A DNA stretch of 64,000 nt from Membranipora membranacea (Eukaryota; Bryozoa; Gymnolaemata; Cheilostomatida; Membraniporidae): the NCBI GenBank assembly GCA_914767715.1, contig OU612073.1:24800001-24864000 (forward strand), read 5' to 3'. This document shows positions 1 through 54,797 of the stretch, piece after piece. The notes beneath the pieces are model-generated. The model made no database searches, had not been told where the DNA came from, and saw only the letters and a list, made by a program, of their open reading frames with translations. Position 1 is the first letter of the stretch. Each line of letters opens with the position of its first letter. Both the position numbers and the translations under genes were made by a program.

Positions 1-3000
1 CTATGTAAGTGGAAAGTAGGCTCACAACTGTAACAAAAATGCATGGGGCTATCATGAGATTTAAGGACCTGTATTGTGGAGGAGTGGACTGGTATGGTAT
101 AAGACAATTGCGACCTAATATCTAAGTCTAAGTCATCATTGCGGAGAGGATTACCCCTCTTGAATACAGGTACAGGGACCCATGGTATTCAAGCCGCACC
201 CTATACCGTTGCCCACCGGAATTCCGGCTACTCTTATTATCAAAGAGGGGGATCTTTTTACTGCATGTGGGGCGTGCAAACACACAGTGGACCTCCGATA
301 TTTTTAGTCCCGTTCCGCAAGGACCTGGCTAGGATGAATGGCACACCAGTACCAAATCAAAGATGACTGCCGGACCTCACAGATCACAAGTCCACACCCT
401 TGACCATCAGACCACTCCTGACCTAATATATTATGTTGTTCAACACCCGACATGTATGACAAATTTATTATACACTCTCTGACACCCCCGGAGTGATCAG
501 AGTGAGACATCCTTTGAACAGAGACTGATTGATTGACAATTCTGATTCCATTGTAGATTGACGACGCTTTGGGTTACTTACATTCCTCGACTTGTCCGAA
601 GTAGACTATCCCCGCTGGATTCACTTTAGTCCTGAGATCGACCACAGTGTTTGTTTTATCCATCTCTAAGTTTATTTCTATACGCCTCGTTACACAAATC
701 CCATTCAGCTTAGCGTAGTGTTCTATTCGATCTGCTCCAGCCCTCCCATAGTTATCATCTGAGTGTATGAGAGTTATGATTGGCCAGTCGAGACAGCTGG
801 CCAATTGGAGGATGATCTACAGCAAAGTATTTATTCATTGGTTGCTTGGTTATCGCACTTAAACCACTGCTGCCACAGCTGGGCTCTGCTCAGCATGGCC
901 ACCAGTAAAACATCTAAATAGAGAGTTGTGGCATCAAAACATCTAGCCAGTAGCTTTGCATGGAGTCATATGAGCCCTCATAATGTAGGGATTATCTTCT
1001 TCCCCAGCCATCCACCATTAGTGATGACAAAAGTTGACCCTGACCAATCAGGTGCCTTTAAAATCTAGCTGAGATCCAACACTAATAAAAATGTTGGATC
1101 TCAGCTACATTACAAAAGTTAATGCAGTTCTGAATGGGCACTTAAAACTGTTGCTGGCGATCAGTTCTGTAAGACATGTTGTGGAACATGTCCCACAGCG
1201 CTCAAAGCGTCTATAGCATTGTTCTCAAATACAATACAACATTTTATACAGCCTATATCGTTAAAAATCCATTGTTCTTTAGTGCTGTATGATATGTCCC
1301 ACAAAATTTATTTATTTATTTATAGAGGTTTTCTTAGAAGTGTACAGATATCAAAAAGAATTCTATTATAGGTAACTTATTGACCTCTGAAAACAGCAAA
1401 AAAAACATATTAAGCTTACTACCAAAGTTAAGCACAGAGTTAATTATGATTAATGACATGTGGCATTACACTGGTTATGAGGTAAAAAAAAGTATTGAAG
1501 AATAATAAGATCGGATAATAGTGTTGCAGTTAGTATGGGAGCTGATTAGCCGAAGAATTTACGGTTTGGAAAATAAAAAATATACGAAAGAATGCTAAAG
1601 ATATAAATCTATGAGTTTACTGTATCATGTTCCTGTTCAATCATAAGTCAGATGAGTTTTAGCTGATTTATCTTTAAGTGTATATTGGTGAAGTAAGTTT
1701 AAAAGGGCTGATTTTCCAAAATTTGTTTGAAATGAGGGTTTAAATAATAGTGCAGATGCTTCTCAGACAACGCTGATGCTTTCGGGACTTTTGAACGAGA
1801 TTAAGGATATGCTTAGAAGCTTTGTTTTTTGCAACTTTTTATGTGTAAAATTATGAAATAGGTATTGTCTCCTACTTAGTAGTGTGGGAAAATTTAAAAG
1901 CAATCTAGTCAGTTGTGACAGAAAATTTCTTGGGAGCAGATACAATAATTCTGATTGCTCTATTTTGAACTTTCTCAATTGTTCCAGTGACCTTTTGTGT
2001 AGTATCTAGGTAAATTGCTGAGCAATATTCTAATATTGGTCGGACAATGCTTTTATAAGTTTTAAGGGATTCTTCAACATTCATGTATTTTTTTAAGTTT
2101 AGAAATAAGACTAGTTTGTTTGCTCTAGTTGCAACATCAGTAGCATGGGTATGAAATGTGAGGTTTGTGTCGAGAGCAACTTCCAGAACATTGATTGATA
2201 GCTGTGATTCAATTTTTGTGTTTTGAAAACTCAAGTGGTAATAATCTTTTAGATTCCTGTTTGAGAAGATACAAAATTGCGTTTTCTGAACGTTGAGTTT
2301 TAGGAGATGACTGCTATACCATTGAGATGCATCTTCCAATAAAGTATTGGATTTTTCTAGAACCTCTGGTATAGTTGTTGCCTCACAGAATAACAAAGTG
2401 TCGTCTGCGTAAGCAAATGAGTTTTTAAAAGACACTAACAATCCATTGATAGCAAGGTTGAAAAGGATGGGGCCAAGAATGGAGCCTTGTGGGACTCTGC
2501 ATGTTATTGGTAGTGAATTTGATTTTGACTCTCCGACTTTCATGATTTGGGATCTGCTGGTGAGGTATGATTCTAAGAGCATTACTGAGGAGGGTGAGAA
2601 TTGCCTTTTGCCTAGGGTGTGCAAGAGGAGTTTGTGGTTAACAGTGTCAAAGGCTTTTCTGACGTCTAGGGATATGGCTCCAATGTAGCAGGGAGCAGTC
2701 TGATCCTGTTTAGTTTTCCATTCTTGTAGCACAAAAAAACAGCATTTGTTCAGTAGAGTGATTTTGTCTGAAGCCAAATTGTTTGTCCAATGAACTCCCT
2801 CTTCCTCGAAGAGGGAGTTCATTGGTTTGTCTGAGAACAGATTGCGTTTTTCAGTGAACAGCATCATCTGCTTCTTCATATCAGATTCGAATATTTTGGA
2901 TAATATTGGGAGGGAGGAGATCGGCCGATAGTTTGATGGGTCATTTTTATCACCTTTCTTGAAAATTACAGGACTGGACTTTTCTGTAATGTAGATTTTA

Positions 3001-4936
3001 AAGGCACCTTAATGGTCAGGGTCAACTTTTGTCATCACTAATGGTGGATTGCTGGGGAAGAAGATACTCCCTACATTTTGAGAGCTCATAATTATAACTC
3101 CATGCAAAGCTACTGGCTAGATGTTTGGATGCCAGAACTCTCCATTTAATTTTTTGACTGGCTGCTCTGCTGGGCAAAGCCCAGCTGTGTCAGTAGTGGT
3201 TTAAGAAAGGCTATCTTGACTTGGTTGGTTATACAGAGGATCATTTGGAGCACTGGAATATGCTGACATGCTATCGTTGTTTGTTTACACCACACCTATA
3301 ATGAGCTATAGGTCTGTAGTTACATAACACTACTTGACATTGTGATGAGTGGTCTATGATGCTTACCTGAACTTGTAGATCATCTGATGGTATGGTCCTG
3401 TAGAACGTGCTGTACTTAGATCGATCACCAAGATCAGTTAGAGAGGCAGTCGGTGAAATCAGAGGTATGTTTGTCTCATTCAGAAACTCGGCAACTTCTA
3501 CAGCATTACTGCTACGGGACGGGCCGATCAGACCTAAAATAAACACTAGGAAAGGTGAGAGGAAGGTTAAAGGTTCGGGTACTTTCATTGAAAATTGGGA
3601 TCAGCCTATCAGATATAACGCATATAGAATGATGAGTAAATATGGCATAGAAATGGCATATGTTGAGACATAACAAAGGCAGAACAATCACACATTGCCG
3701 CGGAATTAATTCAAAAACAGTTCTAAATGGAATTGCCTAGATTAGCTCCCTAATCCATCTTGTACTGATACCAAAGTCAAATTAACCTGGCCTAAATATA
3801 ATAAAGTGAAACTGGCCAACAAGGTGGCTTTGGTGTCTGTAAACAAAACCTCGGCTGGATGCATGTATGGCCCAAATTATCACACAATAGACTGTCTTCT
3901 GCTATTTGGTCACTAATCGACCACAACTATGGGTGCGCTTTGTGAAATCACATCCCAATGCAACTCCTTTCCCTGTGGCAAGAATATCACTATCATTATG
4001 GACAATAGGCACAGAAATCTTGACATTCTGCGCTGCTAGGGCATGATAGTATCTCAGACAAAGTTAAATACCGATCCCACTCACAACAAAACAACTGAAA
4101 CCCAGTGATTATAGCCCTCAAAATATCCTATCCATCCCAGCAGATGGACTAGAAACTACTTGTGTAATATATTATTATGAAGACAAATTGTAATTATCAA
4201 GATTCTTGCTGCCAAAGCTGTAAATAACCCACCTAGCAATAGAGATTTGTCTTTCCAGTCTTCCTCATCTAATGTCAAACAGAGCTTCTTATCTATCCAC
4301 ACACCTTGAGCTATACTTGAGCCTGCCTGTCTAACAGCAAGGGACTTGTTGTTGCATATGTCAAGAAACTGTACACCTACAAAAAAAGGTATAATTCTCA
4401 GTGTAAAATATAAACCAATGAAATGAATATACAATTCAGGACATATGAAGCACCTCACTAGAATATCACAGTAATATTAAATGGTTTAAGTTAAATGTGG
4501 TTGCAAAATTGTTTGCAATGCAATAGATGGCATTGATGACTCGAGTAACTTGCCGTATGTGATGCCGGGGACTGTGATTGTGTTGAGATTGCCAGCGTTA
4601 GCTTCCTCTATGAGCCATTCTACAGCTAGTGCTCCTGACAAGAGGGATAAGTCCTGCCCATCGCAAGATGCAGTTGTGCTCATCTCAAGAAGTATGTTAA
4701 TATGAACAAGGTTACTGCTATCTCCTGAAATCAAAATCTTTCATTGGGAAACTGTAAAGTCTTATTTATTCTTATAATGGATTCTCCCACACTTTTTTTC
4801 GTTGACAAAAGAGTTTTCTGCTAAAGTAAATGTTAATTGTTACTGTACCTGAGCATTGTTTCTGTGGGTAGTTAGATACCGAGAACCCCGCTGTGACAAG
4901 CGTGAGAATTAGCAGAGCAGAAGTATGCGAGCTCAT
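1..4936 (-). CDS. Venus-flytrap receptor gene A (5' part, runs off window)
   Basis: Partial gene on the minus strand. Exons in reading order: 4936-4849, 4724-4554, 4376-4233, 3533-3367, 816-582, and 27 to beyond base 1. Exon 1 encodes a signal peptide (start MSSHTSALLILTLVTAG). Exons 2-5 encode the first half of a family C receptor VFT (ANF_receptor) module. Signs of this are the 'ALAVEWLIEEANAG' opening helix, the 'IPLISP..SLTDLGDRSKY..FYRTIPSDD' stretch that matches the mGluR/CaSR ligand-cleft segment, and 'HSDDNYGRAGAD' of lobe 2. Exon order, phases (1,1,1,0,1) and sizes match the complete paralogue at 9888-19835, exons 3-5 being identical in length. The exon 2 donor reads GCAAGT, so intron 2 appears to be a GC-AG intron. 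Exon 6 starts after a clean TTGTTACAG acceptor, and only 27 bases are present. Presumed product: extracellular ligand-binding receptor at the cell surface. Ligand unknown. Confidence 0.85.
1066..1107. repeat. Perfect hairpin inserted in the left inverted-repeat arm
   Basis: Arms of 15 bp (1066-1080 and 1093-1107, 'tagctgagatccaac' and its complement) are separated by 12 nt. Without about 40 nt of this palindrome the left arm would read straight through like the right arm (…aaatcta|cattac…). This marks it as an insertion. Confidence 0.8.
1763..2995 (-). pseudogene. Non-LTR retrotransposon reverse transcriptase, 5'-truncated and frameshifted (CR1/Jockey-like)
   Basis: Reading on the minus strand from about 2990, the frame gives 'PVIFKKGDKNDPSNYRPIS', then 'DVRKAFDTVNH' (RT motif A), 'VPQGSILGPILFNL' (motif B) and 'YADDTLLF' (catalytic YADD box). 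It continues to the thumb-like 'LEYCSAIYLDTT…IEKVQNRAIRII', characteristic of CR1/Jockey-clade LINEs. The main frame stops at 1905 and the sequence appears to continue in another frame to about 1763, so it is broken. No endonuclease domain or 5' part is present. A 17-bp-arm hairpin (2787-2825) sits inside the coding frame. The copy lies in intron 4 of receptor gene A, in the same orientation as the gene. Confidence 0.85.
2787..2825. repeat. 17-bp-arm perfect hairpin inside the LINE reading frame
   Basis: Arm 'ccaatgaactccctctt' (2787-2803), loop of 5 nt, complementary arm (2809-2825). The short sequence 'gtttgtc' lies on both sides. The encoded residues (MNSLFEEEGVHW) replace what is normally a conserved 'QFGFRKG'-like RT segment, so this is probably an insertion or templated palindrome. 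Confidence 0.75.
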
Positions 4937-7795
4937 GACTTCTCAGGTCTAGTGCAGTCTGCCTAATATTTTGGCATCGCTTATAAGAAACTGGTATCTA
5001 AAATGTTTTATAGGACAATGAATTGTTCGATGCAGGGGGAATGCATTACATTGACATTTTCTTTCTATTATCCCAACATCACACTGCTCTTTTGTTCAAC
5101 ATCAAATAGACACATAACATATGCAAATAAATATCATTATATCTATTTGTAGAGGTAAAGCAGCAAAGAGGAAGTTAAAGCACAAGGGCTGACGGCTGAC
5201 GGCAGGCAATGGAATCTCATTATAGATGTGAGGACGGCGGGAGAAGCTGATAATAGTTCACAGCTGTGTGGCACCGTACTTTGTGGCACTCGACACAACC
5301 CAACTTGATAGTGGTTATAGTTGAATGATCAGCTGGAATCAAGAAAGTTAAAATTCCTCAAACAAATTTGGAAGGAGATATATATTCTATGACACAAGAC
5401 AGAATGCATGTTACTTACTTAGAGAATCAAATCAGCTGCAATTCTGAATGTGAACTATGACTTGATTATGACATGGCTATTTTTTACCTCACATGAGAGG
5501 GAATTAGGCATATAATAACCTCATCCTGAGTAATATTTGTTGTATTCAATGTTAGCTTAGTGAAGCCTTCTATTTATTTACATTTTCAGTAGTCAAGTTT
5601 TTAAAGCTAAACACTTAACATCAGGCAATTTGATTCTATACTGATCGTAATCAGATCGTATTTGATTGAACAGTAAGACAGGGGTATGAGAGAAGTATCA
5701 AAGTTGTCAGGGTGAGCAATAAACTGATGTAATATGATGTGATGTCAAATATTTAGCATTTTTAGTAAATCTTTCTCAATCAAAGAATGTAAAGATTTAA
5801 CCTTTCTGGTTGCATATTTTTTTTAATGTTAAAACGACCTTGTAACCAATTATGAGAAAATTGTGCTAGATTATGCTGTTTTTAGGTTGTTACTACTACC
5901 AAACTATTCAAGTGAAATCTTATACTGAAGGCTGCTGCTGCTGGAAGCTCCTAAATTGAACTGTTTTCTTGGGTCACCATGAGCTGTTATATTATATAAA
6001 TTATTATGTTTGATAAAATTATCAGAATACATGGGATGGAATCATACGATGTACTATATTTCATCAATATTCTAATAGGCCAGGTATGTGCAAAGTTGAA
6101 AAAATAAGACGATAATGGGACAACTCCTAGTCTCATGACACCCCCACAAACAAATGAAACAGAATGAGGCTAATTGTATCTGCTAACTAGAAATATATGA
6201 AGATGAACAATTTATCTTAGTCACCAGACCACTGTGATCTCAACAAGTAATTTTGTTCCATAACTGAAACTTAAATACAAAAATACAATCGGTAAAGCGG
6301 ATAGATGTGACAATATGTATATATATCTTCCTCAAACTTGATCTGCTTCTATAGAAGCCATCTCAGGTAAGAATGTCTTCTGGGCTAAGCACAAGCCTTT
6401 GCAATGATTTAACAAATAATTGAATCTAAATGTTTTATGGTATACATCTCCAGTAGAACCCTGGCCCCTACTCACCAATCACCATTCTAATTCAGTTATT
6501 TTTGTCTTACAAATTTTGCTCCTATCCTGAAACCCGCAAAGCCCTTACAATCAAGAAGGGTTGCAGCAGAACAAGGGGGTACGCTGATCGGGGAATATTT
6601 GAGGAATCATAATACTCAGTGAAAATGTATTCATTGTCCGCAATCCAGGTTTTTTGTTTATTACTCTATCAATTTTGATCGGATTTCTAGTTTGAAAATT
6701 GCTTTACGATCAGCAGCATCTTGTTATCAACTTGATGTTATTTCTTCTTCAAAAAATTGTTTTGTCTCAAATTAGTATCAAACTGTTTACGACAAGCTGC
6801 TAAATCTATAATAACTTTCAAACTCAAATTCGATTAAAATTGATCAAGTTAATGAACACAAAACCTTGATTGTGGACATTAAATAAATGATAGCATCATT
6901 GCTTCTACACATTCCAATGTCGCTGCGTTGCCCACAATTAAAAGCCTCAATGCTGATTCTCCATATAGTGTCCTGTCTAGGTTTATTATCAAGTCTGTGG
7001 GTGACGCTTACTTTGATGTAAGACAAGGCAACTCCGAAGTATCACTGTTGACTCAAATAGTTTATTTATTTAGCACCTCAAACAGAAACACTCTATAAAA
7101 TATCTAAGCTGAGAACAAGATAAATACTTCGGTTGTTTAGACATGGGAGCTAAACGCTCCAAATCAATCAAAATTAGAGGGCTTAGTTTTAGTGTTACTG
7201 TTTTCCTATAATTCTACACATCAAGTAGAAAGGATGACGTGTATGCGGAGATTGATAGAGAAATTGAGCAACCCATTAAACTACATGCACTGGCCTGTTT
7301 GATGTGGCAGTAATTACTTCAACTTTTGTGTACTTCTCCCATCGCCCACGGCAGACAAGGTAAGCCAATGTCACGACATGACTACGGCACCCTTTCCCCA
7401 CCTGCTAAGGGCGGATCCAGATCCAACCGAGTGCGAGTCTCCTGTTCACAAATCTGCTTGGATACTATCAATCAACGTAATTTTATGTGTATTCTTTTGT
7501 TGCAGTATCTGTGGAGAAGCTGTCTTAAAAATGATCATTTCATAATGATTTCTTTCTTCATCACTTTTAAATACTTCATTATGTGCAGTTTGATTTTGTT
7601 TACTGCAAGAGGTCAATTAACATCCCTTATTATTTCCTGATTTGGGATCATCAATGTATGGGACAACTTGAGCAGCAATCAGCCTCCATGTAACAAAGCA
7701 ACTTATAAACAGCTCCGCTCACAAACTGCAGGGTGGTCAATTGCCTTATTGGTACAAGGTAAAATAAAGTCATACTTTCTGATTCCAATTTACCA
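4937..7795. other. Intergenic region between receptor genes A and B, upstream part
   Basis: No gene was recognised on either strand. The sequence is AT-rich with short open frames only. A TATAA-like motif reads on the minus strand near 4980-4986, about 45 nt upstream of the gene A start codon, and could be its core promoter. A short open frame at 6844-7026 (minus) has no recognisable family. Confidence 0.4.
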
Positions 7796-7799
7796 GACA

Positions 7800-8568
7800 C
7801 AAAGTAGATATCAGTCCCCTTCTTTTTTCAATATATGTACAGTATATGCCTAAGCCTAGCTCTGGTAACTTTCATCAGATTAAATATGCTGACGACACAG
7901 TATTGATTGAGCTTTTGTCGAGAAGTGATGTTTCATGTATGGGTAATGCTGCCCAAGATTTGGCTGGTTGGTGTCATGATAATGATCTATTTTTGAATGT
8001 GTCAAAGACAAAGGAGCTTGTATTGTGCAATCTTAGAGACAATCCTGTACATGATAGCTTAGTTATCAATGGTAATAATGTAGAGCAGGTTGACAGTTTT
8101 AAATACTTAGACACTATTATTGACAAAAAGCTTAAGTTCCAAGAATATTCCATCGAAGTCATCAAGAAAGCCCGCAAGAGACTTTACATCATGAAGAAGC
8201 TGTATTCAATGCATATAGCTGTGCCTCTTAGAATGCAATGCTATACTACTTTTATTGAATGTATATTTTTGTACCACCTTAGCACTCTATATGGCCACTT
8301 ATCCTCGTCATCTAGGAAATCGCTCAATAAAGTTATAAGCCTCGCAGGCTATCTAGGTAGCTGCAAGTTTGACCCCATCGAGGCAATATACGAAAGAGTG
8401 ATGAGAACAAGATGCCTCAGACTCGTAGTTACTGACCACGGTGACCCAGTATTTACATTCGATAAACTTCCGTCTGGTCGATACAGAGCAATCAAAGCGA
8501 GGGTAAACATACGAACTGACTGTTCCCGATCCCTCTGTGTGCGGAAGTTAAATAGTATACTTTTTTAG
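7800..8568 (+). pseudogene. LINE reverse transcriptase 3' half (L2/Rex1-like), degenerate
   Basis: The plus-strand frame opens at the catalytic 'IKYADDTVLIELLSR' box. It runs through 'DSFKYLDTIIDKKLKF' and 'IKKARKRLYIMKKL' to the characteristic 3' end 'FDKLPSGRYRAIKARVNIRTDC…LNSILF' and a stop at 8568, followed by a T-rich tail. Motif B just upstream ('QSPSFFNIC') is in a different frame, so at least one frameshift separates the pieces. The 5' portion, including any endonuclease, was not found. The second, more decayed copy at 28028-28528 ends in the same way (LPSG…LNKSLF), which defines one family. Confidence 0.8.
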
Positions 8569-9887: not shown

Positions 9888-12800
9888 TCAGTATCTTTGC
9901 CGAGGCGCAGGTGATGGGACTCTGCACAGGTCTGAGTCAAGGCTTTGTCTCCCTAAGCTCTGTTCATGTTCATGTTCATGTTCATGTTCATGTTCATGTA
10001 CTGGACCTGAGAAAAAAATGGCATGGCAATGAGATAACAAGTATTGGGATAAACTTGTGCACAAGCATATTCTCTGCCCAACCACTTCATTTAAAAACAG
10101 CATATTAATTTATGCCCTGATCTACATATATTATAATACATAATTTCGAATAGTGCAATAATTCAAAGGATCTACCTGCCAAACATGATATTTAATTGAA
10201 TTTTTTCTGAGATAGACTCGCTGATAGTGGCCATCTATATAGCACCAGTTAAGAATAAAAGTAACATTTTTCCTTTCCTATAATTCTAAAGATTGTGAGA
10301 AAAATATTCGTGCGTTTGTAACCTATAGTGACGATCAAGACCGTAATTGGCATACAGGGACCGTATCATATAATAGATGTTCTCAACAAAATCGACAAAC
10401 AAATTAACAGCCTAACCAAAAGATTGTTAGAATATTCGCTGAACAATGTAAGTTAGTGAAAGGGAGGTGAGAGGGTAATTTTTGCATTTATTTTGTATTA
10501 ACAGCCTCTCAATGAAATGGTGGGCTATCAGTGGCATTTGCACATATGTCCAAGTTAGGCCAAGTTAACAGCTCACTTTCCTTAGTTGGTGGCGAGAGGG
10601 CAACTTCTTAGAGTTGAGAATGACAATTACAACACATGAATAAGCTTTTACCAAGTATGGCCAGAACAGAACAATGGTCCTGAATGCATTGGAAGATGTA
10701 CAGTAACTTTGATACATAGGGAAACAAAGGTTGCAAAAAAGGGGACAATGACTATATTCATTTGATATCAAATTTCAATCTATAGACTTACCTCTTTGTG
10801 AGATAAATGTGAATGGTTCCATCCTGTGCATGTTATTATTACTCTCCTGACTACCACCAGTGCTCTGAGTGACACTCTCTTCTTTTGGATCTGTAGAATG
10901 CTCATTGTCCCTACTGATATCACCTACAGATTTTATGAGTAAAACAGTTGAATGAATGAGTTGAATGTCAATGTTTTGTGCTAATGTAGACAAAAGTGCG
11001 ATGAAAATATGTTGTATGTATCAAACTCAACACAGAATGAATTAAGAGGGAGATGCATTTCAAGCAAGATATCCCTGCCACTTTGCTCAAAACCATCAAT
11101 TAGACAAATACATTCTGCAATCATTCACGATTTTGGAACGACACCCCCAGGTCTTGCAAATTTGATTAGAACTAGAGGAAATAATATTTTAGAAAGTTTT
11201 AATTGAAAGCCTCCCCCCCCCCCCTTCCTACCCCCTTCCCTAGTGGTGCCTATATTTGAGAGTCCTCCTCTTCATTGAAATAATTATTGTCGATAAAAGT
11301 TGACAACTCATTTTGAACTTTAGAAACTGGATCTCCATGACAAACAAGAGTTATTATTAACCTACCATCAGGTTCAATTCTGACTTTTAATGCTCTACCA
11401 TTTCGTCCTGAAAAAAAAATTCAGAGTAAATCCAGTCAAACAAATGTGCAGTGATGATGAAAGCCCTGGAAGGTTTGAATCATTAAAGGCTACATAAAGA
11501 CCAAAGCAATTTAAAGTCCGGCAGCCAGTGTCTGCAGTAGTTATGCAATATCTTTATGCCAAATAATTCATAGCACCCAGTAAAAGTCATGTTTAATTTT
11601 TAGGAATTTTCTCCCCTTCTCACCAATGCAATATTAAGACCTAGTGCTGCCAGCAAAATAAGCTTTAAATTACCATAAGTTAAAATTAAACATATCATTT
11701 TCATTGTCAGGAGAGAGTGTACAATAGTAGAGATCTTCATTCATCATGAACCTTTAAAGTTTTCTAAAGTAGATAGAAGTGGTAGCTTATAAGGCTGGTG
11801 CAGCAAGAACTAAGCATTGAGATCTCGTAGATGGGAAGGGGGGACAGATTCAAACAACATACATCATTTCCATACTATGAATTTATTCAATGTTAAAAGA
11901 GAATTGCATAAATAATGCATAACTAGCTGCCAGACTGCCTTGGTCTTTCTGTAGATCTTAAGTTATCCAAAAAAAATGTATAATATTAATAAGCAATCTA
12001 CTAGAAGTTAATGGACCAGATTGATTTGCAAATGTATGGAGTTGAATGTTTCGAGTTACAGTTTGTCATATGTTGCCTCACCTGGCAGCATGGTGTAGTA
12101 AGCGTAATGTCCTACTGCTGGAGTAAATACGAGAAGTATAACAAGTGTTACTGTACTGATCCAAAAGTTGGCTGTACTGTAATCAAGAGCTTTCTTTATA
12201 TTTTCCAAATCAGACAGATTTGAGAAGCTCGGTAACTGCTCCTGTTGGCTGCTGATAGTGACCTCCACATTTTGTGGACATTTAGGGTGGGGAATTTGAG
12301 TCATGAGGGCTTCTTGACCTCCAGGGAAGTATTTTGGCTGTCTGCCCTCTCTAAGTGACACTTCTCCCTCAAAAACTTCATATATTAGCTCATATTCTGG
12401 AGCCTTCACATCAATGTTAGAGACCTCATAGTTTGCCCGGCCGTCACCTTTTCCATCAAATGGGGACATATTACGAGATGGATTAGGATCAACAGCAGTT
12501 ACGACCTGGTCAGGAATTTCTGTACGTAGCAACCTATCACGAAATTCTATTTTTGAAGTATTTGTGAATATATTTTCGCAGTATTTGGAGAAGCATTTGC
12601 CTTCAGTCAATGAATCATATATGGCGTAACCTATCGAATAAACTGCCATCACCATCCTCTTTGCATATACTTCTTCAAAATCAAATGTCCATCTTCCTGT
12701 GCAACCTGCTGAGGAAGAAACTAGGTTACATTCACTCGAACAACTCGATTTGCGCACGGTGTCATATTTACCCTTCACAGAACAGTTGAAGTTATCCTGC

Positions 12801-15800
12801 CAGCTCATAAGAAAGAGATGATCATTTTGGTGATTGGCTGTTGTTAATGCGCTGAGAAAGTCCTTGAAATGATTTGTTTCACCATTGACTGTCCACTGAA
12901 AGGAATCTTGATCAAAATCGAACGTGATGCTTCCTCGTGTTACATCATTCCTGTTTTCTATCAGAAGTGGCTTCCGTCCCCATGTTTCACTTGCTATGAA
13001 AAATCTGCCATGTTCAGTCCAGGTGTATTTCAGTGCTGAACGTTCTAAACCGTTTAAAATATCCTCTATAATATAGTCTTCACAAAAAATTAAAAAGGCC
13101 ATAGTTTTATGCTCCGGACTTACAAGGTATTCCACAGCACTCTTTATGTCTTTTTCCCTATTATTAGCACTTATAGTTGCTTCAAAACTGATGCACATGT
13201 CTCGCTCCTGATGAACAGTTTGTTTGACTTTTTCTCCACCTGTCATCCCATATAATGTGTCCGAATGAATCACGCCGATATTTTGGATACCAATTCTCTT
13301 CGCAATCTGAACCATTGAGACACCTTGTTCAGAGTCACTAGGAACATTCCGGATGAATGTTGGGAATAAGAAATGGTCACTTAATGATGTGCTAGTACTT
13401 GAATATGATAATTGTGGTATGCTAAATAGTTTCAGAAAGCCTTGTAGAATAACGGAGATCCCGCTCGAGTTGTCTCCAACTGCAGCTACAATACTGTCGT
13501 AGGTAAAGTTTATAATTTTTCCTGCATCATCTTCAATAGTCAGAAATTCGGGTTGAAACAGCTGCTCAAGCAGAGAGTAAGCACGCTGATCTGAGTAACA
13601 GAAATCAATGAAGGCGGTATTGAAAGTAAACCCTACTAGCTTCTCAATATGTTGAAGGGAGTAATAAAAAGCTTGCATCCTGAGAAACCCGGCCGGAGAG
13701 ACACTTCCACAATCAGCCGCCCCAGGTGTATGAACACTTTCACGAACAGATGAACTAGCTATGATCAACAGTGAAGAGTTTCCTTTTCTAAACACATACG
13801 GTGGTTCTTTTGGCTTGAAACCTAAACATTGTTCAGTTGAGCAATGGGACGCACCAGCATAGTTGGCTATATCCATTGAATCGTCATAAAACTGAACAGT
13901 ACCATCGGTGAATCCAGTGCCAACCTTCAATTACAATACAATACTGATTATATTATGGCATATACCGAGTCAATCAAGTCCGTATAGATATAAGTACTGA
14001 GGCCCTCCTTGTTATTCCTGTTCTGAGAGTGGATTACAAAAATATGACTCTTCTACTCAATAATGTATGGAAATTAGCTTTTACACTTTTAACATGTATT
14101 TGGCCCGGGATCCCTGACTACTAAGTACTGACCCGTAGGTAATTCAGTATCTACATAGTGATCCTTAAATCTTAGTGAGCACCTCCAGAGTGGTAATCAC
14201 AGCTTATACAAGGTTCATACCTATTCTCACTTGACTAGGCGTTCTATCTAGTGATTTATAATTGTATGGCTCATTTGACTCAGGAGGTTGTTACTTACTT
14301 CTTTGTAAGTTACATCATCAGGGGTGACAATATGGAGCTTGTATGCAGGTACATGCTCTGTCCGGTGTGTGTTTGGAAAGTTCAGAGTATAGCTAGTCCC
14401 ATCGATCTCAATACTTGAGTTTAAATCATTTAACGATCTGTGTTGCCAAGCATAGAAATTATCGGTTGCTCTGATTCCAGGGCAAAATCCAAATTGCTCC
14501 TTTGAACAAATAGTTTCATGGGAAGTTTTGAAGGCAGACAGCATACTCAAAGCAGAGATAAACAAGTTGTGAGTTGCGCCGTTGTGGACGGAGTCTTCTG
14601 TACATGTTCTAAGCTGTTTACAGCGGCTAAGAAGCTTATCTGTTAGTCCACAATCCGAGGTTATGTTGCTGAAGCGTCTACTTAGGTAGTCGGTAAGACC
14701 TGCGGGCCGTCCTTGTTCAGAGAATGACTGGTATATTTTTAGTAGTCTCAGCTGGTTCTCAACATACCCTTGCTCAGCTTGCTGTAGCTTCTTGAGAACT
14801 TCCTCACTATCAGCAACAGCTTCACTTACAATGATAGTTCTTCTTGGGTAGCTTTGATGCATTTGCACATTTTCTATGTAAGTCGAAAGCAGGCTTACAA
14901 CTGTAACAAAACAAAATATGATGATGATTAGAGAGTGTGGAAGTTGTGCCAAGATTTACAAGCAGCTTATAAGAAGTGGCAAATCGTTTTTGGCTAGCTT
15001 TATATTATGACAGACACAATTTTCTGTTTATTTCACTAATAATTACTATTGACTTTTAAAGCACCACTTGGTCATTTGTTTCATGATGAAAAATAAAAAT
15101 TGACCCACAGGTGAATGTAACTCTTGAATTTTGTAGATAAGCACAAAAGTATCTTATGTGCGCTACACATTTTAAACTGTACTGATATGACTGTATATAT
15201 ATATATATAAATATGTATATAAATATACATAAAGATATGAATATACACTTATTCATATTATTAAATCAATTAATTAGACCAATATTTATCCTACATAATA
15301 ATAGATGCATTGTGATGCTACATCATGCAGGCTGTAGGGCACCAGCACCAGTCAAGTGAATAAATCGGAGATATGTGACCTGGCATTATCTCCGCAAATT
15401 GTGCTCAGTATAAAATATCTAAATCGATAAAAAGATTTGATTCGAGTTTTTAGCGTTTAAAGTTAGTGGAGACCAATTAGCACACAGAAATTTATGAGAC
15501 ATCGGGACTGGATGTGCCGTTATCATTAAGATTGATTTGATTTATGATCTCAACATACATTCCTCGACTTGTCCGAAGTAGACTATCCCGGCTGGATTCA
15601 CTTTAGTTCTGAGATCGACCACAGTGTCTGTTTTATCCATCTGGAGGTTTATTTCTATACGTCTCGTTACACAAATCCCATTCAGCTTAGCGTAGTGTTC
15701 TATTCGATCTGCTCCAGCCCTCCCATAGTTATCATCTGAGTGTATGAGAGTTATGATTGGCCAGTCGAGATAGCTGGCTAATCGGATGATGATCTATAAG

Positions 15801-16497
15801 CACAAGCAAGTAAAGCATAATATATACCGTAATACCTCACCTATAAGGCGTGCCTTATAAGTGAAAGAGCCTATAAGAGAGGAGCATATAGGCCAACTAG
15901 CATTTGAAGTATTTTTATATTTATGTTGGATCATAATCCCCGTTTTATAAGGGAGGATGGATAGTTCAGTGAATTTAAGTTTCTTAAGGAAGGCTGAATA
16001 GCTCAGTGTGTAGAGCTCAGTGTGTAGAGCGTCTGCCTTGTACATAAAGTTCCAAAGATGTTGTGGGTGCAAATCCCTTCATATGTCAGTTTTTTTTCAA
16101 AGGGGTGCCTTATAGCTGTGGGCAGGGGCGTGTATTCTAAAAAATTTCACTCTCTGACTTTTTTTGCATATCGGTAGCAAAATAGTGCAAGCAGAGAGGT
16201 ATTTCAATAGCTCACTGAGCTGTTGGGTACTTTCAGAAAACAACTCAATAGCAGTAGAAGATTACAGTAAAAATGCTCCAGTTATAAAGCATTAATTTGA
16301 AAAAAAACTGACCTCGATGGGATTCGAACCCACAACAATATTATTTACAGTGTTTATTAGGCAGACGCTCTACACACTGAGCTATTCGGCCACTCACTGA
16401 AGTACATGGGCCGTGAGTGTTAATATACGCCACTGGCTGTGGGGTGCTTTATAACTGGAGCATTTTTATTTTTTCAGAGGGAAGTGAGGTATTACGG

Positions 16498-16529
<32 letters not shown>

Positions 16530-19500
16530 TACGATAAACATGCAGTACACAAGCACTTTCAATATTGGATCTGATTTGCCCTCTTTATATGGAAAGACTG
16601 ATATAGGCAGATACATATTTATGCATGTATATATATTTATTCAAATATGATGGCAATCGAAGAGAGGCTCTGAAAACTTCCTACTGTTGTGATTAGTCTG
16701 AACAGCCACTAGTTGTAATAAGATAAAGAAAAGGTCAAGCATCGACTGAGTGTTATATATTAGATGATTATCTAAGAACAATACATATATATATATATAT
16801 AATGTTTTAAAAGTATATGTTCTTCTTGCTGATGAAAGAGTGTGAATCTAACCTGAGCCTGTAGATCATCCGATGGTATGGTCCTGTAGAAATTACTGTA
16901 CTTAGATCGATCACCAAGATCAGTTAGAGAGGAAGTCGGTGAGATCAGGGGAATGTTTGTCTCCCTGAGAAACTCAGCCACAGGTACAGTATTACTGCTA
17001 CGAAGAGTACCAATTAGACCTGAAGAATAGTGGGCAAAATTTCAACACAGTTTTCTGAAGGCTGAGACATTCGCAATATCACTAAACTATTTGAAACGCA
17101 AAAAATGTAAGCTTACAAAGGACTTTATAGATATGCATATGAAACTATCAGGGATCAGGGAAGCTCAGTATTAGAGGTGACCCATTAAGGATCATTAGGT
17201 CCTGGGTTCGAGCCCCACCGTGTGCACTGTTCGTCTAGTACTACCTGACTTGGCTGTCGCGGGCCAATCACCCTAGCCGTCTTGGAAAGACTAACGGATA
17301 ATGTTATGCCATATTGCCAGGACCTTCAACAATGAAGTTGGCGATCATCCAAGAAAATAGTCTAGGCCTCGGGTTATTTTAAATGTATCTGAAATGCAAC
17401 CAAACCCTCCCTGGTGAACGTTATTCTATTAAAACCAGTTTCATGTTATTTTTTTTATATTATTCAGCCACTAGGCTGACAATGAACATTACCAGAAGGT
17501 GCTTGAGGAGAATTTTAGATAAACCAGTACCAGTACAGCACAGTATAGCTCTGAACGAGTCAAACTGTAATTCCTTGAAGCAATTTCTTGAATCAAATTA
17601 TTGTTTGGTATGGAATTAAAGGAGCACAACAAAGGCCTATCAATATTATAAGTGTCACACATTAATCCTGTGATGTAACTCATTTTAGAAGCTTTTGTAA
17701 ACTGATAGCCTATATCCTATAATGACATTCAATGCCCACAATTTTTATAGAAATTCAGAAAAAATTATGGCAGCTGTCAGACTGTATTTTGCTTCGGTCT
17801 ATGGATAGTCAGTCATTCTCGCTATTACCCTTCTTTACTAAATATGGTATCCAAAATCAAATCACTTCAGTCAAGTTTTCTTTGGAGTACATATTGACAA
17901 CTATCTTAATTTTAGACATGTAGATAGCATTATATTTAAATGTAATTCAAGGTTTATATGTTACGCCCGTTGTAGGTGCTAGGCATGAAAACCGCAGAAC
18001 TGTCTTTTTGTTCATTTTAAATGGCTTTAATCAGGTTAGTCACAGTTAGTCAAAAAAAAACTCACCTAGCAAGAGGGATTTTTCATTAAATTCCTTCTCA
18101 TCTGAAGTTAAACACAGCGTTCTATCTGTCCACAAACTTTCTGCCATACTGGAGCTCGCTTGTTTAACAGCCAGAGATTTATTGTTGCATATATCGAAGA
18201 GTCTAACACCTAGAAATAAGATCATAAAGAAGATGAAAACAAAAGACATACAGTCTGAAACCTTGACCAAACTATTTCGCTTTGCAAAAGTGACACAAGA
18301 CACAGCTGCCTTCGATGGACTTCATGGTGATAATGATATACAAGCTTTACTGTTGAGAGTTTGTGTGTAGATCATTTTAATTGAAGAGCATGGTAAAGAA
18401 AAATTTTAAAAGTTATTTGGAATCATTGATTATAGGTTGGATTTGAACAATAATGTCAACCCAAGGATGACTGATAATGATATGCACTTTTTAAAGATCA
18501 TACCAAGCATACTCAATGTTAAATCTGTCCATAAAAAACTAAGTTTTCAACGCTTTTTTATGCAAAAACTGAAGCGAGACCTTGTTGCTTGTTGTGCAGT
18601 GCTAGCTGATGATGAAAAGGATTAATCTTTATACAATATCTATACATCCTTCTCATAAAATATCAAGCATCTTAGTATTTATGAAATGTCCAAGATAAAT
18701 TGCTGTTGTGAATCAGCAAGAACCGTTCCCCTCAACATCTGCCTGGAACTGCCTTTAAAACTAGTTTCACTGCAGATGGTCCTCTCTTCCAAATGAACAG
18801 TATTGGAAAAGTCCCTCGCATTTATTGTCACTGCGGTTGGAATTCCAGCCTCAGATGATTTGAGGCAACCTCTCATCAAATCTCAAACAAAGCAGCACGC
18901 TGATTTACATACCATATGTGATACCGGGGACAGTTAGATCAGCAAGTCTGCCAGCGTTAGCCTCCTCTATAAGCCATTCTACTGCCAACGCTCCAGACAA
19001 GTAGGTTAGTGAAGGTTCTCCATCACAGAGATCAGAGGGGGTCAGCTCCAGCAGCATGTCTATGTGTACCTGGTTACTGCTATTTCCTAAAGTCAAATAA
19101 TACATGCTGAATTTCTATTATCCATTTCAAAAAACACAATGAAGACATCAGAAAAAAAACTTTGAATTGTGATTGTCTTCCTATTTGACAACCAAGTTCC
19201 AAGGCGATTTCATGTAGCCATGAGCTGTTCAATTCATGACCAACTGAAGATGTCTATGTGCAATTCCTAGCGCATGTGATTCGGAGTGGCTAAATATGAT
19301 GCTTGTCACAGACTCAATAATTCCACTGCTGTCCTACTGATGTCCTAATGATGTCCTACTGCTGTCCTACTGATGTCCTAATGATGTCCTACTGCTGTCC
19401 TACTGATGTCCTACTGATGTCCTACTGCTGTCCTACTGATGTCCTAACGATGTCCTAATGATGTCCTAATGATGTCCTAATGATGTCCTAATGATGTCCT

Positions 19501-19835
19501 AATGATGTCCTACTGATGTCCTAATGATGTCCTACTGATGTCCTAATGATGTCCTAATGATGTCCTAATGATGTCCTAATGATGTCCTAATGATGTCCTA
19601 ATGATGTCCTACTGATGTCCTAATGATGTCCTACTGCTGTCCTACTGATGTCCTAATGATGTCCTACTGATGTCCTACTGATGTCCTACTGATGTCCTAC
19701 TGATGTCCTACTGATGTCCTAATGATGTCCTACTGCTGTCCTACCTGAGCACTGCTGACGCTGCTGAGTATTAGATACAGAGGGATGAAGTCCTAGAAGT
19801 ATGAGAATGAGCACAGCAGAAGTATAAGAGTCCAT
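9888..19835 (-). CDS. Tandem Venus-flytrap single-pass receptor B (complete, 10 exons, ~1182 aa)
   Basis: Exons in reading order: 19835-19745, 19086-18913, 18209-18066, 17019-16853, 15793-15559, 14900-14299, 13924-12082, 11407-11366, 10923-10792, 10006-9888. They total 3549 nt (1183 codons), and every junction has a GT donor and AG acceptor with matching phase. Residues 1-22 are a signal peptide. VFT module 1 spans about 30-490 ('IPLISPTSSLTDLGDRSKY', 'SDDNYGRAGAD', 'FGFCPG'). VFT module 2 spans about 500-1045, with 'SYSSTSTSLSD' near 644-654 matching the mGluR/CaSR amino-acid-binding segment, then 'HSDTLYG'. One membrane helix lies at about 1058-1081 (WISTVTLVILLVFTPAVG), followed by a hydrophilic tail of ~100 residues with an (HE)6 tract. 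No cysteine-rich domain, seven-helix domain or kinase follows. The family relation to mGluR/CaSR VFTs is clear from the fold motifs. Ligand, partners and signalling mode are unknown. The exon 7 acceptor has a weak pyrimidine tract. Confidence 0.85.
9960..9999 (-). repeat. Coding hexamer repeat giving the (His-Glu)n tract of receptor B
   Basis: About six copies of a 6-bp unit (CATGAA on the coding strand) lie just inside the terminal exon, a few bases after its acceptor (TTTCTCAG). They encode alternating His-Glu in the cytoplasmic tail. The length is likely polymorphic without changing frame. Confidence 0.85.
11211..11235. repeat. C-rich homopolymer tract
   Basis: A run of C's and C-rich sequence just beyond the stop of the read-through exon 8 form. 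Similar C runs occur near 25183, 28665 and 30241. Confidence 0.8.
11250..11407 (-). CDS. Alternative longer form of receptor B exon 8 ending in a stop
   Basis: The acceptor CAG at 11410-11408 is followed by an open frame that either splices out at the donor GTAGGT (exon end 11366) or reads on to a TAG at 11250. Reading on gives a shorter cytoplasmic tail of about 52 residues ending EEEDSQI. Both choices are in frame with exon 7. The read-through form would skip exons 9 and 10, including the HE tract. It may be an intron-retention isoform. Confidence 0.45.
15991..16088 (+). repeat. tRNA-derived segment with duplicated A-box (left arm)
   Basis: The sequence 'GGCTGAATAGCTCAGTGTG' is followed by an exact 14-bp tandem duplication (gctcagtgtgtaga), then 'gcgtctgcc' and a decayed B-box, 'GGGTGCAAATCCC'. 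The cloverleaf is disrupted and longer than a real tRNA, so I read it as a tRNA-derived repeat. Confidence 0.65.
16311..16396 (-). repeat. tRNA-derived segment with intact A- and B-box motifs (right arm)
   Basis: On the minus strand 'GGCCGAATAGCTCAGTGTG' leads to 'GTGGGTTCGAATCCCATCGA', a canonical T-arm. The region between is too long and AT-rich for a normal anticodon and variable arm, which suggests a SINE head and not a functional tRNA gene. Confidence 0.65.
16501..16525. repeat. (TA)n microsatellite next to the foldback element
   Basis: A TA dinucleotide run abuts the right TIR. Similar short runs lie at 15196-15211 and 16784-16800. Confidence 0.85.
17155..17345 (+). mobile_element. tRNA-headed SINE in intron 3 of receptor B
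   Basis: The sequence has an A-box-like 'AGCTCAGTATTAGAGG', then a B-box 'GGGTTCGAGCCCC' about 40 nt later, near 17206-17218. A tRNA-unrelated body of ~130 nt follows. This spacing is typical of a tRNA-derived SINE. The 3' boundary is not clear. Confidence 0.6.
19324..19744. repeat. 11-bp minisatellite (~38 copies) starting at the intron 1 donor of receptor B
   Basis: Units TACTGATGTCC, TAATGATGTCC and TACTGCTGTCC are interleaved. On the transcribed strand the array begins at intron base +1, and each TACTG-type unit contains GTAGGA, identical to the authentic donor (CAG|GTAGGA). The corresponding intron of gene A is only 124 bp and has no array. Confidence 0.9.
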
Positions 19836-21306: not shown

Positions 21307-24300
21307 TTATTCAAGCTCGTCATTCTTTACCTGAGGAAGGTAGATATCGCTGCTGCAGTCTCCTCCTGGGTATCGAGTCTCGTGGGCCAGCACTGGACCG
21401 TCTGGCTCTTGTCCGAAATCAACAAGAAAATTCTCATTTACGGTAAGTCCCCCCTCATCAGTATCAACATCTATCTGTAGCATCAAGCTACCACTCCTGT
21501 AATCAAAGAAAATGGTTATAATAGAGGGGGGATGGGAATTTTTAAGCAACACTGTTCTATCACTACTGCTGTGATCTTCCGCCACCTATTCTACTACTGT
21601 ATGTTGTAAGTAAATGTAAGGATCGATTATCTAGTCACCTCGTCTCTTGTTTATCAGATAAGCGAGATTACAAAGCATTGAAATCCTCATCAATGACAGT
21701 GGGTTGTATTCAAGAGTTGTCTTCTCTTATCACACCTATGACAACTAGACTCAATTGGTATTCACTAAAACTTAATACAATTCAATGTAAGTACTGATGA
21801 TAAACTAGGTAATAATTGCTCGTAAACAGCAATCTCACTTACTTCACCAGCTCAGGGTAGAATTGTTTATCCCAGGGACTTAGCAGTGAATCAGTCACAT
21901 ACATTCTCTTTCCATCCAGACTTAGCTGTATCATCTGAGGCCCACCTTTCATTAGTCTGCCCTTAATAAGACGCTGGTGCGGCTGGTCAGTCATGTCCTT
22001 ATCTTCAGTAACCTTAACTGGTCCTCCCTTACAAACCGAACCTCCAATCCAAACCTGTAAGCAACCAATATTACAATCTACATGACAAGTAACTTATGCT
22101 AGAACTAAGCAATGGTTGTATCAGCTGGTTGTTCTACCTGTCAAGATCTAGGGATCAAATAATTTTATCAATACTGTACATAAATATCATTTTTGCTTAA
22201 ATTGGATATCTAAACATTCACTGCAGTCACTGTCTTGGGTCAGTTATACACAAACTTTTGTGTCAAAGATTATCTATCGGTGCTTATGAACTCCTCAGGA
22301 GTGCCGAAATTAATATAGCCAGTGCAATGATAGGGCAACTCCCAATTATTTTGGTGGTTTCTAATTCCAGATTGAGTTCTTTCGTCCGACAAAGCATCAA
22401 TACTTTTTTAACTTTTGAAGTTTTGATAACTTACTTGTCCAACAAGTTTAGGATGATCAGGGTCAGTGATGTCATACTGTCTCAGATCTCCGTGTAACCA
22501 GTTAGAGAAATAAAGGAATCTATCATCCATCGATATCAGTATATCAGTAATAAGACCTGTACACACACATAGATATCAGTAATAGGACCTGTACACACAC
22601 ATAGATATCAGTAATAGGACCTGTACTGAGTCGTGATCACTGTGGTGATGTCATAAAAATAAGTCTGTGCCCTCACATGGAAGCAGGTGCAAGTTTGTGG
22701 TCTTTCATGTTTTATAATGTAATGCCGCAAACTCGCATCTGCTGCGATATTGGCAAACATACAGTTTAGAGGAATATCAGGGATCTAATGATATGGATGT
22801 TGATGATGCTAAATAGTAAGTACATTGGTGAATGAGGATTGTAACAAGTTGCTCCCATCCCGTTGCCGCCCCCCATTACCCCACATAGTGAAATCAGAGA
22901 ATTTTACACATATGCATATAACTTGAAAAGGAGAATCCTCAAATTAATAATATCAGCTGAGCTTTAGCAGCAAATATGCTGCAAGGAATCTAAATGTAAC
23001 CTCCTCTTCCCATTCACACTGTCCATGTATTCATGAACACAGGTCTCCTGATCAAACCACGTCACATCTTGAACTTACATGTTACAAATTCTATACAACA
23101 TATTCTACAGGGAAAATTGCACAAACTCTGCCTGCCAAGTGTACTTAAAAGTGCCTCGAACAGGAACAGACTTTAGAAATTAATTAATCAATTAAATTAT
23201 AAAAATGCAGCTGTCTTCTTTTTGGCAGACCTAATAAATAATTGTTTTATGGGAAAATGTTCATTTTAATGAGATAGAGAAATCTAACAAGGTATTTTGG
23301 CTCTGACAGACAATTCCTTTGAATTAACTTCGTCAGTCACTGTTGAAATATTCTTTGGTCAACTTTGTAATTAGCGACTGTGACAATAAAAGATAAAAAT
23401 AGTTCTAATTTTGGCACTGATCTACTTTAAATTCTAGATTAAGTGTTTTACAATACATGTATAAAACTTACCGGGCATGTGAGGTAGGGCCCAACCTTCA
23501 ACTGTCTTAGGATTGACAGCTATCACAGTCTCTGTACTCCATTTACCAGTCTTCTAGAAAAAGTATAACAAATCAACTGCATAATACTGCCTCTACCTAG
23601 TGTAGCGCATCCAAAGTCCTAAAAAATCTCTATGAATTTCCAGTGATGTAATAATCGATACAGATTCAGAAATCGATTCAATTCAAATTCCTATAACATT
23701 GAATTGAATCGGGTTGCAACAATGTTGACTAAACTGAATTGGAATCGAATTTTGTGTCATCACTTACCTGGTTTTGCTCAAACTTTTTGATGGTACTTGA
23801 GAGAGCACAGCCAACGAACCCTATTGGTTGGTTTGGGTTATGCATGAATCTTATCTCCAGTGGGATGAGTCCATCGTCTCCGAGCTTGACGGACTGCTGC
23901 AGGCGACCCGTACTAAAGTCCCAGAAATGTAAGCTGTTTCCGTATTCTAAAATAATTTTGTGATAATGTAGGGCGAGGACAAGAGACACACAAAAGAGAT
24001 AAATTATGTCAGTATTTTTTGTTTGAGGATGTAACAATGTTAATTAGGATTAATGGAATATATTTCGGTGTTCAATTAGCGATAAGCAAAATACAATATC
24101 AGTATATTACTCACGAGAAGCCACTTCAGCAGGGTTGAAACCGTTCCACCAGGCCTGAGGACATCCGAACTCGGTACTGATCAGAGTGTTAAACTTATAC
24201 TGATACCAGAAATCATAACCAAACGGAATTGTGTCCCCTCCCTTCTCCCAGCAGCCTTTAATCTCCCATGTCTGTCCATCCAGTATAATAAATCCACCTG

Positions 24301-53300: not shown

Positions 53301-54797
53301 CTAGTGGGTGTGAGTGATGGCTATTATTTTATCTCTCTCCTCTTTTAATATCTTGCAAATGTCTCGGATATTTTTAGCCGCATCGGACGGGGTTCCTTTC
53401 TGTATTTGGATAGCGTGATGTATCACATAGCCGAGATCCACCAGTAGAAATAGAGATCCAGCTACGCCACCACCTACAGACATTATCGTTCTCTTCAGAC
53501 CTTGTGTAGCACCAAACTGTAATAGATTAACATCGATGATGAAATATTGGTGGAAATGTCATATCTCGGAGTTACCTGTTCAGTAACAGTTAAAGGGGAG
53601 CAACTCCCAGGTACCACATTGCTATGTCTGGTAGTCTGTTTCTAAGGTCTAGTCAAGCGAAACAGATTCTCAAACAAATAATGGTATAAGAAAACTAAGG
53701 TGTATAGCCCTCAATAATTACAACCCTCAAAAAATAGTGCTGTCCCATGATGCCTGATGATATCTAAAAACAACAAACCTTCCATATGGAGTTTCCAGCT
53801 TTAGCCCATTTCACTGTTGAGTATATTGCCTGGCCAGACTTTGCCCATCCATACCTAAGATATAGAGATAATAATCAATTGTCTCCAGGTTTTATCAGAG
53901 AAGCTTTAATTACCCCATTTTAACACTCATTAATTTGGTAAGAAAACGCTCTGCATGAATATTATAATACAGATACCACTAACTGGTGCACTGATATCAG
54001 AATATTCTGGGCCTATGTCGCTATGATTGCGAGCAAACCAAACATACAATGTCTGTCAGTAACAGTTCAGTGTCTGTAAAGAAACCTCCGTTATAAATTT
54101 AAATGATGTTTTCAATCTTATATCAATCAAGAGAGACTAGGCAACTATAGTGACTGTTTCATTTCATGGTTTGAAATGTTTCTACTACACCACAATGACA
54201 CATAGCTCATATATGTACTTGTGTACATTTTAGTGATACTTACACTCGCAAGCCGGAAACCCACAACTTTTGCATTCCATCAACGAAAGCTTTGAGGCTG
54301 GTTTTCACCCGACTTTTGTGTTCTGCTTCAATATCAGAGGTATCTATGGTCGATTCTATTTTGGCCAGCAACTGAGCTTGGACTTTTTTGTCCTGCTCCA
54401 GAGCGCTTTGGGCAGCATCAACTCGCGTTCTCTTCTTAAGATACTCAACAACCTCTGCTACAGTCGCAGTCACGCCACCACCAGCAGCTATTGTCAATCC
54501 AGTTCCTGTCAGGAATAGACTTGCACCACCAGTAAAAAATGAAAGTGCTAAACCTCCCAGAGCAATGCCACCACCTACTGCCCCAGCTACTCCTCCAGCT
54601 ATCTTTGAGTATGTGGCCCTTTTGTGTAAAAGATCAAGCTCATCAGCTACTCTTGAAAGTTCTGTTATTGTAGTGTTCCTCAGTGCAACCCAGTCACCAA
54701 TCTCTAGCTGGATTTGCTTCTCCTTCTCTGCCAAATCAGCAGATTTAGAAAAACTCAGCCCCATCCTCCCTGACTCATGTTTATATGTTTTGATCAT
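53301..54797 (-). CDS. Apolipoprotein L-like protein (3 exons, 281 aa)
   Basis: Exons in reading order: 54797-54244, 53854-53779, 53516-53301 (846 nt), with matching phases. An N-terminal coiled-coil-like helix (about 20-60) ends in 'ELDLLHKRATYSKIAGG', close to the APOL 'L..LHK' motif. A long Gly/Ala-rich hydrophobic hairpin follows (about 64-118: IAGGVAGAVGGGIALGGLAL…GLTIAAGGGVTATVAEVVEYL). An amphipathic middle region comes next, then a second hydrophobic segment (about 221-247) with 'LFLLVDLGYVIHHAIQIQKG' and a helical tail 'AKNIRDICKILKEERDKI', as in the APOL C-terminus. No signal peptide is seen. APOL proteins are membrane-inserting, some of them ion channels. The role here is unknown, and an upstream 5' exon cannot be excluded. 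Confidence 0.8.

Follow-up and report, generated by a model that had tools for sequence, protein, structure and literature searches.

A predicted receptor family with two tandem Venus flytrap modules and one membrane helix in the bryozoan Membranipora membranacea

Gene A, the focal receptor gene of this study, lies on the minus strand (19835-9888) of a 64,000-nucleotide stretch of the genome of the bryozoan Membranipora membranacea (C9:24,800,001-24,864,000, on contig OU612073.1; hereafter the window), and its predicted architecture is two Venus flytrap (VFT) modules followed by one membrane helix, with no recognisable effector domain. By sequence comparison it is a member of a family that counts about twelve related loci in this bryozoan; B–H denote paralogous loci and C1–C10 genome contigs. 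We read protein A, with confidence evenly poised, as a dimeric type I single-pass receptor for amino-acid-like ligands, similar to NPR-C or to a Venus kinase receptor (VKR) without its kinase, a reading in which ligand, dimer and output are what we infer.

Domain architecture of protein A

The coding sequence of gene A runs from an ATG at 19835 to a TGA stop at 9890-9888 and encodes 1182 amino acids, including 24 cysteines and ten N-glycosylation sequons, in the following order: (i) a signal peptide, visible as a hydrophobic N-terminus, (ii) two VFT modules of the class C G protein-coupled receptor (GPCR) type, (iii) one membrane helix, and (iv) a short tail. The initial annotation, made from the letters of the window, had proposed two mGluR/CaSR-type VFTs in series with a single helix, and the profile search bears it out: the Pfam family ANF_receptor matches the joined protein in two stretches (E 5.6e-55), and the single strongly hydrophobic segment follows VFT2 at residues 1053-1081. 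ANF_receptor also matches VFT1 alone (E 5.9e-26) and the exon 7 frame (E 3.5e-28), and the only other Pfam family found in protein A is Peripla_BP_6, a related one.

The best matches among solved structures are mGluR and CaSR for both VFTs, together with taste receptor chains for VFT1. A profile built from five VFT1s aligns with positions 42-482 of the 493 of mGlu3, running across the exon 6/7 junction as far as the cysteine-rich domain, whose first cysteine pair it reaches, VFT2 matches mGlu5 (E 2.5e-55), and the exon 7 frame matches mGlu7 (7e-30). One strong membrane segment follows VFT2 in each of A, C, D, E, F, G, and H; at locus F the spliced model cuts the helix, and the open exon continues through it.

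One gene, with no recognisable effector domain

The splice between exons 6 and 7 falls after residue 471, inside VFT1, and the residues on both sides of it lie within the mGlu3 alignment. In addition, loci E, F, and G carry the counterparts of exons 6 and 7 as a single exon of 2427, 2370, and 2466 bp, respectively, which spans the second half of VFT1, VFT2, and the helix inside stop-free open frames of 847, 892, and 834 codons. Since the splice lies within VFT1 and one open exon spans both modules in these three loci, VFT1 and VFT2 are assigned to one gene, which, to the extent that genomic DNA can show it, counters the possibility that exons 1-6 and exon 7 belong to separate genes.

No Pfam match to 7tm_3, NCD3G, or a kinase was obtained in protein A; of the class C GPCR features, the VFT is present, and the seven-helix domain and the NCD3G cysteine-rich domain were not found. 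The scan was extended to all 108 minus-strand open frames (89 + 19) of at least 22 codons between the helix of A and the start of B, shorter exons escaping it, and returned no Pfam match at E 0.1; neither a tyrosine kinase, the hallmark of VKRs, nor a cyclase catalytic domain following the helix was matched in protein A or in these frames. The genome itself contains at least 19 matches to 7tm_3, and among the matches listed the nearest to loci A-L stands ~300 kb from G on C2; three matches are listed for NCD3G, each of them under the cut-off and next to 7tm_3 genes. A downstream exon encoding seven helices was not found in the 108 frames, and among the 7tm_3 matches listed none lies within ~0.3 Mb of A-L.

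A gene-model artefact, in which two adjacent genes have been fused or a downstream effector exon has been missed, is very improbable. It could draw on exons 8-10, placed from splice signals alone, and on downstream exons below 22 codons, which fall outside the scan, but the last stretch of VFT1 is encoded by exon 7, the single open exons of E, F, and G bridge both modules and the helix, and 108 of 108 open frames are without a Pfam match.

Gene model

The initial annotation had described ten phase-compatible exons, and all ten were recovered on the minus strand; they are bounded by AG acceptors and GT donors, and their phases (1,1,1,0,1,0,1,1,1) fit together. They are listed below with the part of paralogue B that enters the window.

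19745..19835, minus strand: exon 1 (start codon, signal peptide); ATG, hydrophobic N-terminus, GT donor, phase 1; counterpart of 88-91 bp in B, C, and D
18913..19086, minus strand: exon 2 (start of VFT1); AG/GT, phase 1; paralogue exons match
18066..18209, minus strand: exon 3 (VFT1, with Cys121); AG/GT, phase 1; the stretch matched at nucleotide level in B, C, and D agrees with the exon limits to within ~10 bases
16853..17019, minus strand: exon 4 (VFT1 core, with the ligand-contact positions Ser145, Ser167, and Asp187); ANF_receptor match
15559..15793, minus strand: exon 5 (VFT1 core, Tyr215); ANF_receptor match; 235 bp in A and B; 95.3% identity to B
14299..14900, minus strand: exon 6 (second half of VFT1, with Glu297); length of 602 bp shared by A, B, C, and D; profile alignment to mGlu3
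12082..13924, minus strand: exon 7 (final part of VFT1, then the cysteine linker, VFT2, and the sole membrane helix); ANF_receptor 3.5e-28; mGlu7 7e-30; database sequences P0001 and P0003
11366..11407, minus strand: exon 8 (tail, provisional); splice signals and phase only; no paralogue support
10792..10923, minus strand: exon 9 (tail, provisional); splice signals and phase only; no paralogue support
9888..10006, minus strand: exon 10 (tail and stop, provisional); splice signals and phase; TRF array 9961-9999 is the translated hexamer repeat
1..4936, minus strand: 5' part of paralogue B, comprising exons 1-5 plus 27 bases at the start of exon 6; spliced alignment 3560; 724/1127 aligned residues identical

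Exons 1-7 are backed by the paralogues through spliced alignments. At the nucleotide level, the 19 rows of matches between A and B, C, or D end within ~30 bases of exon ends, with the lone exception of a repeat-like intron match to C; exon 1 and the last ~200 bases of exon 7, which include the helix, were unmatched by blastn against these three loci. The hydrophilic tail of ~100 residues, on the other hand, stands in part: its frame and splice signals are present, and paralogue support for exons 8-10 is lacking. These exons, drawn from splice signals and an open frame only, may be wrong, and exon 10 is partly a translated (TGTTCA)n microsatellite. If exon 7 were instead read on past its donor, a stop at about 12057, shortly beyond the helix, would leave only a few residues of tail.

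Two intron features were recorded along the way. Intron 1 holds a minisatellite (window 19325-19744) of ~38 copies of an 11-base unit that reaches the exon 1 donor, and intron 4 contains, at window 16309-16391 on the minus strand, a tRNA-like match that only just reaches the threshold of Rfam (29 bits, E 0.059), is uncalled by ARAGORN, and is perhaps a short interspersed element.

The paralogue family

The genome searched comprises 18 contigs and 339,339,785 bases; the genome note gives 339,374,674 bases in 21 scaffolds (PMC10290214), leaving a few small pieces outside the searched set. PF01094 occurs at 43 places, 7tm_3 receptors included. Spliced alignment of protein A to the seven paralogous loci yields scores of 606-3694, which is far above chance: three shuffled versions of locus B reach 53-62, and a shuffled query scores 61 at F and 106 at H. 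The spliced models of B–H cover both VFTs and the helix, the helix check being made without B and the first exons of E, G, and H being unconvincing. Locus B adjoins A, C and D are paired on C4 in inverted orientation, E and F lie on C1, and G and H on C2, with identities to A of 66.9% for C, 65.3% for D, 29-30% for E-G, and 24.9% for H.

Two further loci on C3, one of which contains a stop, and one each on C10 and at C4:29.35 Mb align with H across much of both VFTs and look like additional family members, the last being aligned only from mid-VFT1, where the examined stretch ends. A candidate at C8:15.64 Mb was rejected, its scores of 90 and 108 being close to the shuffled controls (53-106).

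The remainder of B lies to the left of the window. This paralogue is full-length except for one in-frame TGA in its exon 7 (C9:24797633, outside the window), which may mark a young pseudogene or be a base error. A selenocysteine reading of this codon was rejected: aligned by eye, it falls opposite a threonine of A, not opposite the cysteine. Between A and B, exon 5 (15793-15559 and 816-582, respectively) is 95.3% identical, and exons 6 and 7 are only 74.9% and 73.5% identical, a pattern such as gene conversion would leave.

Phylogeny, selection and related sequences

A midpoint-rooted tree was built from the VFT1s and VFT2s of A and C-H, the VFT2 of P0003, and three reference VFTs, with B and I-L left out. 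The VFT1s and VFT2s are split by a 99/99 branch, with 0 of 500 shuffles as low; A and C-H all combine two VFTs and one helix, with VFT1 and VFT2 on separate sides of the tree. Because the two modules separate in this way, the tandem is older than the split of the family. The VFT2s as a group stand apart from the three reference VFTs at 81/99 only, the references being long-branched.

The tree also bears on whether protein A is a co-receptor that partners a class C GPCR of the same genome and adds ligand sites to it. Class C receptors act as VFT dimers and genes for them are present (at least 19 7tm_3 matches); nevertheless, both VFT1 and VFT2 lie far from the single mGluR VFT of this genome included in the tree, and a co-receptor role is distinctly improbable.

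Ratios of nonsynonymous to synonymous substitution (dN/dS) for VFT1, VFT2, and linker plus helix are, respectively, 0.16, 0.14, and 0.61 for A-C, 0.19, 0.13, and 0.54 for A-D, and 0.21, 0.25, and 0.60 for C-D, values to be read with the high dS of A versus C or D (0.9-1.6); the E-F and A-F pairs are saturated and give no ratio. These figures indicate that purifying selection is acting on both VFTs.

In the protein database, where only candidates sharing most words were scored and few of these were animal proteins, a single-sequence search with the whole of protein A retained none of 7991 scored candidates at E 0.001, and two profile searches retained 2 of 7993 and 3 of 7486, namely P0001, P0003, and two ordinary 7tm_3 receptors. 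P0001 is 98% identical to A with the exon 7 frame intact; it is taken as genomic DNA because both of its ends enter sequence that is intron in A, and it probably comes from another individual. P0003 (ENA) is identical at 250/552 residues, helix included, and groups with the VFT2s of A, C, and D (90/99). It is no proof of a tandem in its own species, since the sequence starts inside VFT2.

Ligand pockets and cysteines

In mGlu1, the α-amino acid group of the ligand is contacted by Ser165, Thr188, Asp208, Tyr236, and Asp318 (PMC2680970), and the corresponding positions were compared in the seven aligned members A and C-H. VFT1 of protein A shows similar chemistry at 5/5 contacts (S145, S167, D187, Y215, and E297), residue 167 being read from the alignment context one column to the right of the scripted column, and VFT2 at 4/5 (T648, D668, Y696, and E784), with a serine, S625, one residue off the fifth. 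Among the members, VFT1 preserves Ser at Ser165 in 4/7, Ser/Thr at Thr188 in 7/7, Asp208 in 6/7, Tyr236 in 6/7, and an acid at Asp318 in 6/7; VFT2 displays a Ser one residue before Ser165 in 7/7, Ser/Thr at Thr188 in 7/7, Asp208 in 7/7, Tyr236 in 6/7, and the acid in 5/7. Both pockets of protein A therefore look able to hold an α-amino acid, that of VFT2 perhaps, we presume, in the manner of CaSR, and the contacts retained in both modules favour true ligand binding. At the position of the glutamate-specific Lys409 of mGlu1 the two alignments disagree.

A chemosensory receptor for cues other than amino acids, in which the tandem serves ligand diversity among paralogues, would accord with roughly a dozen diverged loci whose contact residues differ; the amino-acid contacts are, however, kept by A, C, and D in VFT1 and mostly in VFT2, and such a role appears quite unlikely.

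Cys121, conserved in 6/7 members, aligns by manual count with Cys127 (chain numbering) of mGlu3 (9ii2_R), which we take to be the inter-subunit cysteine; a search of the open-licence literature for such cysteines returned no paper. The cysteines present in at least five of the seven members include C51, C96, C121, C233, C364, C370, C402, and C410, and further C580, C715, C852, C866, C915, and C920.

Proposed mechanism

In the dimeric receptor favoured here, two chains would pair as a disulfide-linked dimer through Cys121 of VFT1, VFT1 and VFT2 would each shut on a small amino-acid-like ligand, and this two-tier closure would alter the geometry of the dimer. The helix and the short tail might then relay the change, either through recruitment of partner proteins or through uptake of the ligand that is bound, with NPR-C as the model.

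Several observations weigh against this proposal. Concerning the pockets, (i) Ser is found at the Ser165 position of VFT2 in 0/7 members, (ii) 4/5 VFT1 contacts are changed in H, and (iii) Lys replaces the VFT2 acid in G and H; because the contacts vary in this way, the ligand is not uniform in the family and may be no amino acid. Concerning the membrane-proximal part, linker plus helix evolves more quickly (dN/dS 0.54-0.61) and tblastn of the tail (exons 8-10) against B, C, and D yields no hit below E 2.3; an elaborate tail signal is disfavoured by this fast evolution together with a tail unconserved in close paralogues. As to the fold, weak extra hydrophobic stretches (1.51 and 1.56) occur within the VFTs of F and H, and an AlphaFold2 model of exon 7 with five sequences was set aside at a mean predicted local distance difference test score (pLDDT) of 34.3, which leaves the arrangement without structural support.

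The unconserved tail and the lack of an enzyme or seven-helix domain in protein A and the downstream open frames would also suit a pure sink or decoy that captures amino-acid-like or peptide ligands, to be cleared or stored, with no signal from the tail, as does the first classification of NPR-C as a clearance receptor (PMC6628360). NPR-C was later found to signal (PMC6628360), though, and a P-x-V-x-H-Y motif, read by eye, closes the helix of A, B, C, D, and P0003 but not that of E-H, which exceeds the needs of an anchor. A sink is unlikely on this balance.

Comparison with known receptor systems

Compared to class C GPCRs (mGluR, CaSR), which both VFTs match best and whose amino-acid contacts are largely kept, protein A has a second VFT, just the first of the cysteine pairs that make up the cysteine-rich domain, and no seven-helix domain. 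NPR-C, whose ligand domain we take to be one VFT, differs from protein A with its two mGluR-type VFTs and a modelled, provisional tail of ~100 residues, and the VFTs of the bacterial sensor kinase BvgS presumably belong to a different VFT class. NPR-C resembles protein A in its extracellular ligand domain, single helix, and short enzyme-free tail, of 37 residues in NPR-C (PMC6628360). VKRs share the external VFT and the single helix (PMC2680970, PMC4038586), whereas protein A has two VFTs and a tyrosine kinase domain was not found in it. SmGBP, a truncated Schistosoma mGluR, likewise retains an mGluR-type VFT without the seven-helix part, but has a single VFT that no membrane segment follows, unlike the two VFTs and helix of protein A (PMC3206071).

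Two VFTs in one chain are also described outside animals. The receptor adenylate cyclases of trypanosomatids display two VFTs outside and one helix, but end in a catalytic domain, the likeness being one of described layout (PMC6027212); BvgS carries tandem VFTs before the membrane, is dimeric, and assigns different roles to VFT1 and VFT2, but is a sensor kinase with its effector (PMC4352136). The earlier statement that the protein matches no known architecture consequently holds in part: two VFTs on one helix (PMC6027212) and tandem VFTs (PMC4352136) are known, both with an effector, while no description of an animal tandem-VFT single-pass receptor without an effector was found in the excerpts of open-licence literature consulted. 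The excerpted text of PMC12716839 and PMC2670285 likewise contains nothing on tandem-VFT single-pass receptors.

Neighbouring features of the window

Just upstream of gene A, two open frames at 21310-24787 (minus strand) match selenium-binding protein (SBP56, E 1.6e-41). Elsewhere, reverse-transcriptase-like open frames at 1908-3008 (minus strand) and 7783-8565 (plus strand) resemble, by eye, remnants of long interspersed elements, a Saf4/Yju2 open frame (E 1.2e-48) occupies 38562-38981 (minus strand), and an Apolipoprotein L-type open frame (PF05461, E 6.9e-15), here in a bryozoan, lies at 54243-54818 (minus strand).

Implications

Flytrap receptors are usually read by the part below the VFT, whether this is a seven-helix core, a channel, a kinase, or a cyclase. 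Tentatively, and at somewhat less than even confidence, the family may represent an undescribed class of animal receptor in which class C VFTs were duplicated in tandem, the GPCR core was swapped for one helix, and the result expanded in bryozoans; such a receptor would be a covalent dimer with four ligand sites of two kinds and a two-ligand output without an attached enzyme. A conserved two-flytrap family with nothing recognisable below suggests that in animals the class C sensor has found a second use as a self-contained module with two sites. The family would offer a natural test of communication between tandem flytraps, as well as a candidate set of chemosensors in bryozoans.

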